Shown in pieces: positions 1 through 1,330 of a DNA stretch of 38,491 bases. The notes beneath the pieces were generated by a model that was given only the letters and a program-made list of their open reading frames with translations, did no database searches and had not been told where the DNA came from. Source of the stretch: Pseudanabaena sp. lw0831 (GTDB lineage Bacteria; Cyanobacteriota; Cyanobacteriia; Pseudanabaenales; Pseudanabaenaceae). Numbering within the stretch: the stretch's first letter is position 1; every line of letters starts with the position of its first letter. The stretch covers positions 1 through 38,491 of the forward strand of contig NZ_BBJB01000102.1 in assembly GCF_016584665.1 (NCBI RefSeq), given 5' to 3'. The translations under genes were made by a program, and so were the position numbers.

Positions 1-244
1 TATTGCCTTTAAATTCGCTCTGTAGACTTTTTCAGGAAGCCCTAATTAAATCAAGTTTTAAAGCTTCAGAAATCCTCATGTTATTAGCAAATCTTGCGCC
101 AATAATATATGAGTATATGCATAACTACGATCACCCTTACGATTTTGCTAACCCCTGTGATAGGTCGAGAATTTCGCTGCCAACCTCAAGAATTGTCAAT
201 ACACATCATTGAGGTTGATCTTTTCCAATCTCCCATCTCATTTC
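1..244. other. Left-edge stretch with no supported gene
   Basis: An open frame of 69 codons runs through positions 3-212 on the plus strand, but it shows no recognisable domain, signal peptide or ribosome binding site. No umuC-like start is visible on the minus strand downstream of the UmuD-type gene that ends at 245. I see no palindrome or promoter worth naming here. Confidence 0.4.
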
Positions 245-1330
245 TTAGAGGGAATGAATTACATTGGTAACTACTCCCCAAATGTGTAAGTCGGTATTCT
301 CATCTATTTCAATAGGTCTGAAGGACTCATTTTCTGGCATTAGCCACAATTTGTTTTGATGATTACGAATACGTTTCACGGTTAGTTCGCCATTCACCAG
401 TGCAATTACCACTTGTCCGCTAGTGACCTCAATCGAGCGATCAACAATTAGCATGTCATTAGGATGAATTCCTGCATCTTTCATAGATTCACCAACAACA
501 CGGACGAGAAAGGTTGTATCAGGGTGCTTTACAAGATGACGATTTAGATCGATTTTGCCTTCAATGTAGTCTTCAGGGTAAGTAGGAAAACCTGCGGCAA
601 CAGGATTTAAATAGAGGGGAAGACGAAATCTAGATCTGAGTTCGGCTCCAAAGAGTTCGACTCCAAAGAGTCTGGCTCCACTGAGGTCGGCTCCACTGAG
701 GTCGGCTCCACTGAGGTCAGCTCCACTGAGGTCAGCTCCACTGAGGTCGGCTCCACTGAGGTCGGCTCCACTGAGGTCGGCTCCACTGAGATCGGCTCCA
801 CTGAGGTCGGCTTTCTTGACTAATTCATTCAGTTGACCAGAATTGTATAGATCTTGAATCGTAGCTAGTGCTTCTGGTGAACCTTTCAAAATAATCTTAA
901 TACTACCTTCTTGAATATCAACTATTTCCAGCGAAGCATCACCAGTGATTTTCTGTAGTTGCTTTACTAAGGCTTGAATTTTTGCCCGTGTTAAAGCATC
1001 AATAGGGAATGACCCTTCTATTACAAAAGCTGCCAAGCGAGGAGAAATAGTTTCGATATCTGCAATATTTTCAATCTGACTATTCTCAAATTTCATAGGA
1101 TTATCTTTCTCAACAATTTCTTCCCATTCAAGGTTCAAAGTTTTACAGATTTTTGTGAAGTAAGGATGATCAATTGGCTTTGTCCTACTAAAAAAGCTAC
1201 TAATTGTTGATCTAGAAAAACCCAGTCTTTTTTCCAGACCAGTTTTGTTTATTCCAAGATCGATTAATGCTTTCTCAGCACGCTCAATGCCCATTTTCGA
1301 TGCAATTAGCGATCTTGTCACTTTAGTCAT
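245..1330 (-). CDS. HTH - pentapeptide repeat - UmuD/LexA-type S24 autopeptidase fusion
   Basis: Probably a self-cleaving transcriptional regulator of 361 residues. Residues 1-70 form an XRE-like helix-turn-helix (core [11 protein letters not shown]) of the type seen at the N-terminus of cyanobacterial NACHT/NB-ARC proteins. Residues about 90-172 form a short alpha/beta module with the motif [11 protein letters not shown]. Nine identical ADLSG pentapeptides and three degenerate ones follow (174-233). The C-terminal 120 residues match UmuD closely in order and spacing: an Ala-Gly cleavage site (AAGFP, A246-G247), serine nucleophile S282 in GESM and general base K319 in TVKRI. The start chosen is ATG at 1330; an in-frame TTG lies at 1342. 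UmuD is normally about 140 residues with no DNA-binding domain and LexA has no pentapeptide spacer, so this architecture is unusual. No umuC is visible beside it. The domain calls are firm; the regulatory role is inferred. Confidence 0.85.
677..811 (-). repeat. Nine identical-length 15-bp tandem repeats encoding ADLSG
   Basis: Nine consecutive 15-bp units (plus-strand form ctccactgaggtcgg with rare single-base changes) encode nine ADLSG pentapeptides. Three diverged units continue to about 632. Because 15 bp is five codons, gain or loss of units keeps the reading frame. Confidence 0.95.

Follow-up and report, generated by a model that had tools for sequence, protein, structure and literature searches.

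In Acinetobacter, the UmuD homologue UmuDAb is described as carrying an HTH-like N-terminal domain and as repressing like LexA. According to these descriptions, repression requires the HTH-like head and dimers, and cleavage relieves it (PMC4807011, PMC11332147). The second account adds that UmuDAb needs a dimer glycine five residues beyond the catalytic serine and a free C terminus (PMC11332147). Several cyanobacteria without lexA are reported to keep SOS genes, which another, unknown factor may regulate (PMC3091678). A third line of work deals with bacterial TRADD-N proteins, for which it proposes the N-terminal domain, an HTH in some of them, as effector and describes a variable C-terminal part (PMC8195603); the main text of that paper makes no mention of S24, UmuD or LexA. 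Here, we describe a Pseudanabaena gene in which elements of these systems meet. A preliminary description of the gene held that no DNA-binding domain is known from UmuD, a view contradicted by UmuDAb, and the donor family of the S24 part of our protein is itself N-extended.

The window analyzed is one entire contig of 38,491 bp from a genome of 5.26 Mb (99.97% complete). Close to its left end, a single open frame on the minus strand (245-1342) specifies 365 aa from a TTG codon; an ATG at codon 5, behind GGTGAGGCA (a GGTGAGG stretch), yields the 361-aa frame at 245-1330 on which the preliminary description was based. Residue numbers given here count from the TTG and exceed those used earlier by four. 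The proposed succession of an HTH, an alpha/beta module, pentapeptides and a UmuD domain was recovered by ORF, Pfam and NCBIfam analyses, with one correction: the alpha/beta module is there, and it is a TRADD-like_N domain (PF20694). The XRE/Cro-type HTH occupies residues 24-78 (1109-1273). Its assignment to HTH_26 is marginal because it scores 22.1 bits against a cut-off of 22, and the same domain reaches 26.6 and 25.2 bits in the two orthologues introduced below. TRADD-like_N follows at residues 121-176 (815-982; E 2e-12, 47.2 bits, cut-off 23.7). This domain is flanked by an N-terminal HTH in the effector position and by a variable C-terminal part, an arrangement that places the protein among the TRADD-N members. 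Next come 12 pentapeptide units at residues 178-237 (632-811; Pfam Pentapeptide from residue 178, E 1.7e-24, 85.4 bits, cut-off 20.2), the first nine encoded by near-identical 15-nt units. Slippage among these nine units would alter the repeat number and keep the frame. The UmuD-type S24 part closes the protein (residues 240-365, 248-625; Peptidase_S24 at 242-358, E 2.1e-31). The sequence thus shows the architecture of the fusion protein, its ancestry and the integrity of its catalytic residues.

The C-terminal part is of UmuD rather than LexA type, as originally proposed: the NCBIfam UmuD model (PRK10276 / NF007621) scores 155 bits over residues 249-363 against a cut-off of 110, whereas the LexA model (TIGR00498) matches the S24 half only and stays below its cut-off (96.9 against 110.95 bits). 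The predicted scissile bond A250-G251 (590-595; both residues invariant in a 10-sequence alignment), catalytic Ser286 (485-487) and catalytic Lys323 (374-376), previously numbered A246/G247, S282 and K319, are all intact according to alignment and residue spacing. With spacings of 35 and 37 residues, the protein thus displays the signature of self-cleaving S24 regulators (A/C-G site, Ser, Lys and S24 spacing). The glycine of the dimer interface (Ser+5, G291) is present as well, and the C terminus is free. A structure model places the S24 fold at the C terminus, as anticipated, and matches UmuD' (1umu) with a TM score of 0.88 by target length in Foldseek; it also matches UmuD on the RecA filament (8gmt), with a TM score of 0.93 by target length and an rmsd of 1.4. 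Model confidence is pLDDT 70-84 by blocks over residues 281-360, under 50 over residues 179-268, the cleavage site included, and 49.8 on average for the whole protein. The fused frame is not a product of chance: its S24 part shares 83% identity with a clade-B relative (see below), and two syntenic orthologues match its N-terminal part at 81-83%.

A Cro/CI-type HTH combined with S24 recalls the domain order of CI, and the module looks horizontally acquired, features expected of an ordinary CI-like repressor from a prophage or mobile element. We regard this origin as very improbable. The S24 domain is of UmuD type and groups within the N-extended UmuDs, TRADD-N and a repeat domain stand between it and the HTH, and inspection of the ORF list by eye revealed no phage genes in the window. 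Neither did full-length relatives appear in viral contigs (27 pattern matches, none related), in phages or among the plasmid matches listed, where no plasmid or phage record covers at least 80% of the query at one place. Two candidate relatives were rejected: an Acaryochloris plasmid (H1) looked like a split version, but its umuD gene precedes a distinct pentapeptide protein without TRADD-N as judged by eye, and a Microcystis phage (H31) encodes a pentapeptide protein with a TRADD-N-like start, judged by eye, and without S24. Seven long S24-bearing frames, from at least 165 rows, contain no pentapeptide domain within the stretches fetched, and the frames as read were mostly shorter than the search listing stated. 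PADLOC has no family for the fusion and returned three weak matches (E 0.0055-0.026) for one of the orthologues (that of G137).

How the fusion arose can be followed by comparison within the genus. Relatives of the N-terminal half at E 1e-10 or better occur in 3 of 26 genomes: the fusion genome, G137 (83% identity) and G266 (81%). Both orthologues adjoin guaA, as the fusion does, and both end as plain HTH-TRADD-pentapeptide proteins without S24. The preliminary description had suggested a search for the same domain order in Pseudanabaena relatives; across the 26 genomes, the fusion is present in one only, and a few other frames that were inspected showed no S24 fusion either. At the DNA level, 246-619 is homologous to N-extended umuD genes, and homology to the host gene resumes at 636. 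The stop codon of the insert terminates the fusion protein, and downstream of it the original C terminus of the host gene persists as a decayed stump (43-97, minus strand). Positions 43-78 match locus L087 (36 nt at 91.7%, E 3e-8) and positions 44-97 match locus L086 (54 nt at 77.8%, E 4e-6), in each case close to the 3' end of the orthologue, and RISEALKLDLI reads on the minus strand of the stump with a stop shortly after. Because this remnant of the host tail lies beyond the S24 part, the S24 segment lies inside the old gene. Judged by these alignments, the pentapeptide region of an HTH-TRADD_N-pentapeptide gene has received an in-frame insertion of a UmuD-type S24 segment. The repeat domain, which had been interpreted as an added spacer or DNA mimic, instead turns out to be the remainder of the repeats that the host protein already had; it counts 60 residues, where a permissive pattern finds runs of up to 140 and 165 in the orthologues. 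Between the UmuD stop and the stump, 147 bp (98-244) have no match of their own in DNA homology searches.

The contig ends 244 bp past the fusion gene, at position 1, within the end of a repeated element (1-48) that has nine further partial copies in the same genome. Such a contig end, the repetitive nature of the pentapeptide units and the single occurrence of the fusion could all be taken as hints of an assembly chimera that joined two unconnected genes, one pentapeptide and one umuD-like. This explanation is scarcely credible, since the stump beyond S24 shows that the two flanks of the insert come from one locus, the reading frame continues across the junction, and the S24 copy is no duplicate of another one in the assembly, its identity to the copy on contig C95 being 76%. 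In the DNA of the fusion, the parental parts can still be recognized, as can the clade of the donor and the old tail left behind.

The donor family is a UmuD-like protein with the head MPRGGKR..AGRP..TKAxRxP, hereafter N-extended UmuD, of which the 26 genomes of the genus contain 27 copies, with at least one in each. This head has no Pfam match and a mean pLDDT of 37 in a structure model; by eye only, it resembles part of a ribbon-helix-helix. The fusion genome has its own N-extended UmuD (C95, 43906-44478). A tree built from 28 DNA rows groups the fused S24 with clade B (support 100/100), where it is the sister of the G266 copy (95/92), and puts the resident copy in the other large clade; direct descent from the resident copy goes against this tree and was rejected. 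In this phylogeny, the fused S24 descends from N-extended UmuD proteins, of a clade other than that of the resident copy. The host module points the same way. It is 86% identical to G266 over 636-1800 and 90% identical to G137 over 846-1800. Over the guaA stretch, identity to these two is just 80-81%, against 91-92% to G108, G165 and G239. The difference indicates that the module was probably taken over from clade B, by horizontal transfer and perhaps already fused on arrival.

Comparison of the fused S24 with its nearest relative (L054) gave dN 0.062, dS 0.994 and a dN/dS of ~0.06, over a span that includes pre-fusion time. Sixty-seven of the 69 columns that are invariant in 27 N-extended UmuDs are kept, the changes being T255P and V314L. 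Two values speak against strong constraint: the fused S24 branch measures 0.35 versus 0.024 for its sister branch, and dN to an outgroup (L058) is 0.091 for the fusion versus 0.049 for L054. An accidental fusion without selected function, in which the host gene was broken by a UmuD fragment and the locus now decays beside a repeated element, is the main rival to a functional reading of the protein. It would fit the restriction to one genome in 26, the shortened repeat domain, the long S24 branch, the repeated element and eroded tail at the contig end, and the situation in G192, where the module has already been lost and a relic of the neighboring small ORF is left. Nevertheless, the 365-codon frame spans both parts without stop or frameshift across an in-frame junction, every catalytic residue and almost all invariant columns survive, and the upstream region and divergent ORF are conserved; we therefore consider an accidental origin without function unlikely.

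Searches for LexA in this genome came back negative. TIGR00498 matches only three UmuD-type S24 domains in it, none over the cut-off, and none of the 26 genomes of the genus has a protein passing that cut-off or a LexA winged HTH (PF01726), a domain found in 280 of 388 genomes of the class. At least 45 genomes of the class, the 26 of the genus and 19 others, encode full-length N-extended UmuD; some of the 19 are incomplete, down to 74%. This count takes in matches starting at residue 7 or earlier and leaves outside those weaker than about E 3e-34; G192 was included after direct reading of its head. Among the matches listed, 43 of the 45 genomes with N-extended UmuD have no LexA winged HTH, versus 65 of 343 other genomes, the two exceptions carrying this HTH clearly (G161) or weakly (G080). 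The corresponding Fisher tests, likewise among the matches listed, give p values of 6e-25 by genomes, 3e-10 without the genus, and 6e-7 by genera (14 versus 146), the last being the only correction applied for relatedness. N-extended UmuD is therefore a candidate LexA replacement, in parallel to UmuDAb of Acinetobacter. S. elongatus, a species without lexA per the literature, makes a poor LexA control. A survey of the open-licence literature by title and opening of the abstract found no paper on N-extended cyanobacterial UmuD or on the fusion.

Alignment of promoters by eye uncovered the dyad TGAWTA-N2-GTAC-N2-TAWTCA. It is shared by two sets of genes: the 18 umuD genes of the genus other than N-extended ones, of which 16 are followed by umuC (umuDC-type umuD; L003, L081, L082, L149-L163), and the genes for N-extended UmuD (L054-L080, L164-L168). 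The former set matches at least 14 of the 16 positions in 18/18 promoters and the latter at least 13 of 16 in 29/35, with a consensus that was drawn from the same promoters; the background for this score, taken from the remainder of these loci, is 16 of 819 windows. Much of that background consists of real sites, since 13 loci have a second near-perfect site (14 or more) beyond the N-extended umuD gene. In all 13, one and the same neighboring gene starts 9-22 nt after this site; the gene encodes 169-183 aa and has no Pfam match (L079:1371-1390, along with L065, L066, L068-L075, L078 and L080). As the consensus derives from the promoters it was scored on, we built a matrix solely from 13 N-extended sites of Pseudanabaena. 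Above 11.8, the best score of 248 background windows, it recognized 18/18 umuD promoters of the genus and six of eight distant N-extended promoters, one of them only just (11.9). A further set comprised 13 umuD promoters of LexA-bearing cyanobacteria, none of which exceeded 11.8, and seven N-extended promoters, of which four did and three did not; two of these seven repeat L018 and L019 (Aphanocapsa and Thermosynechococcaceae MAGs).

The LexA box has the consensus AGTAC-N4-GTACT. It was present at 9 or 10 of 10 positions in 12/13 umuD promoters of the LexA-bearing genomes and in none of the seven further N-extended promoters. In Pseudanabaena, it reached 9 or more in 0/18 umuD and 1/27 N-extended promoters versus 2/73 background windows, and its absence from those promoters rules out that the dyad is itself a LexA box. 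The genomes in these sets are related, and the counts are not independent events. From promoter comparison, the dyad qualifies as a candidate for a new SOS box. This wider context may matter more than the fusion itself, given that N-extended UmuD together with the shared box would be a concrete candidate for the missing SOS factor of lexA-less cyanobacteria postulated in the report mentioned above (PMC3091678). No N-extended-UmuD/umuDC-type box was found in the fusion window, which leaves the fusion gene outside this presumed regulon.

The immediate surroundings of the fusion gene suggest a different, local target. Divergently oriented from it is an ORF of 54 aa (P0002; 1502-1666, plus strand) with one TM-like segment as judged by eye. 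P0002 occurs in 4 of the 26 genomes, namely, all three with the HTH-TRADD gene and G192, which has a relic with two stops and no match to the HTH gene at that locus. It has no Pfam match, including to CyanoTRADDas_TM (PF20712), a domain that is not required of all TRADD-N members. A similar layout is seen on a Trichormus plasmid and in G338, where a gene with TRADD-N and pentapeptides called by Pfam diverges from a small membrane protein; these neighbors (L022 and L033) do match PF20712. The Trichormus gene aligns to fusion residues 1-235 and the G338 gene to residues 11-174, with the HTH not called by Pfam in the former and far below the cut-off in the latter. Beyond P0002, to the right of the fusion, comes guaA (by eye); to the left is the contig end, and the umuDC operon of the genome is on contig C57. 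Behind guaA lies a hairpin-like, terminator-like sequence (1671-1711), with many further occurrences in genomes of the genus. The divergent upstream region shared by the fusion gene and P0002 (1331-1501) is conserved by alignment in three genomes and is the likely site of HTH action. An operator had been expected between 1330 and 1502; the region contains no good dyad, only a weak, widely spaced inverted repeat.

On these grounds, we tentatively read the fusion as a damage-cleavable, DNA-binding regulator of the local two-gene TRADD-N module, an interpretation whose chances we place a little short of even. With UmuDAb as the precedent, we infer DNA binding, dimerization through S24, RecA-stimulated cleavage and control of the divergent ORF. 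The fusion product would bind the intergenic region between its own gene and the divergent small membrane-like ORF, with the S24 domain supplying dimerization. Contact with activated RecA would trigger self-cleavage at A250-G251, parting the HTH-TRADD-pentapeptide piece from the dimerization domain and changing expression of the module. A DNA damage sensor would thereby replace or supplement a sensing role that the repeat domain probably had before. Domain gain may thus have placed a suspected defense module under DNA damage control.

Several lines of evidence argue for this regulator: the domain content with intact catalytic residues, 67/69 columns and a low dN/dS; G291, the free C terminus and a C-terminal S24 fold like that of RecA-bound UmuD (8gmt); the S24-less orthologues, the clade B grouping and the module identities; and co-occurrence with the small ORF, the Trichormus/G338 layout and the effector order proposed for TRADD-N proteins (PMC8195603). 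Weighing against it are the single genome, the long S24 branch with raised dN and two otherwise invariant residues changed, the lack of a good operator dyad or umuDC-type box in the window, an HTH barely at the cut-off, a model that is poor outside residues 281-360, and a divergent ORF without Pfam match. S24 might also act solely as a dimerization or mixing module, forming mixed dimers with the resident N-extended UmuD or UmuD and altering their binding or Pol V supply. S24 proteins are described as dimerizing via this domain (PMC11332147), the resident N-extended UmuD is 76% identical in it, and the genome encodes a umuDC-type UmuD as well. Full conservation of the cleavage site and catalytic pair, needless for dimerization alone, makes such an exclusive role improbable.

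In the fusion, an SOS-type autoprotease has moved from one presumed DNA-binding head to another and into a suspected immunity module. A more far-reaching version, possible and on balance doubtful, is that a TRADD-N conflict module was rewired by capture of S24 from a LexA-replacing UmuD, which would serve as a RecA-filament sensor, and that the donor is the SOS repressor of LexA-less cyanobacteria acting at TGAWTA-N2-GTAC-N2-TAWTCA. It would be a second, independent UmuD-turned-repressor besides that of Acinetobacter.

Compared with known systems, the fusion shares with LexA and lambda CI repressors an HTH at the N terminus and S24 at the C terminus, but it scores below the LexA model cut-off, has no LexA winged HTH and carries two extra domains in between. 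With E. coli UmuD, a Pol V subunit, it has in common the S24 type and a structural match, whereas it possesses a large N-terminal part, and adjacency to umuC was not seen within the contig. UmuDAb resembles it in that a DNA-binding N-terminal part precedes a UmuD-type S24 domain and in that the organism lacks LexA, and its A83-G84, S119 and K156, as described, have the same spacings as A250-G251, S286 and K323. It differs in having a short HTH-like head instead of the HTH-TRADD_N-pentapeptide head and in being described as the repressor of its genus, the fusion being known from one genome and its promoter lacking the box shared with umuDC. The N-extended UmuD of LexA-less cyanobacteria (MPRGGKRxGAGRP..TKAVRLP..), the clade B of which contributed the fused S24, has the box in most promoters of the family, unlike the fusion gene, in which the head has been exchanged. 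Lastly, the N-terminal half is orthologous to bacterial TRADD-N proteins with HTH and pentapeptides, syntenic in G137 and G266, and has the divergent small membrane-like partner gene in common with them; in the fusion, the repeat domain is cut short and an S24 autoprotease follows.
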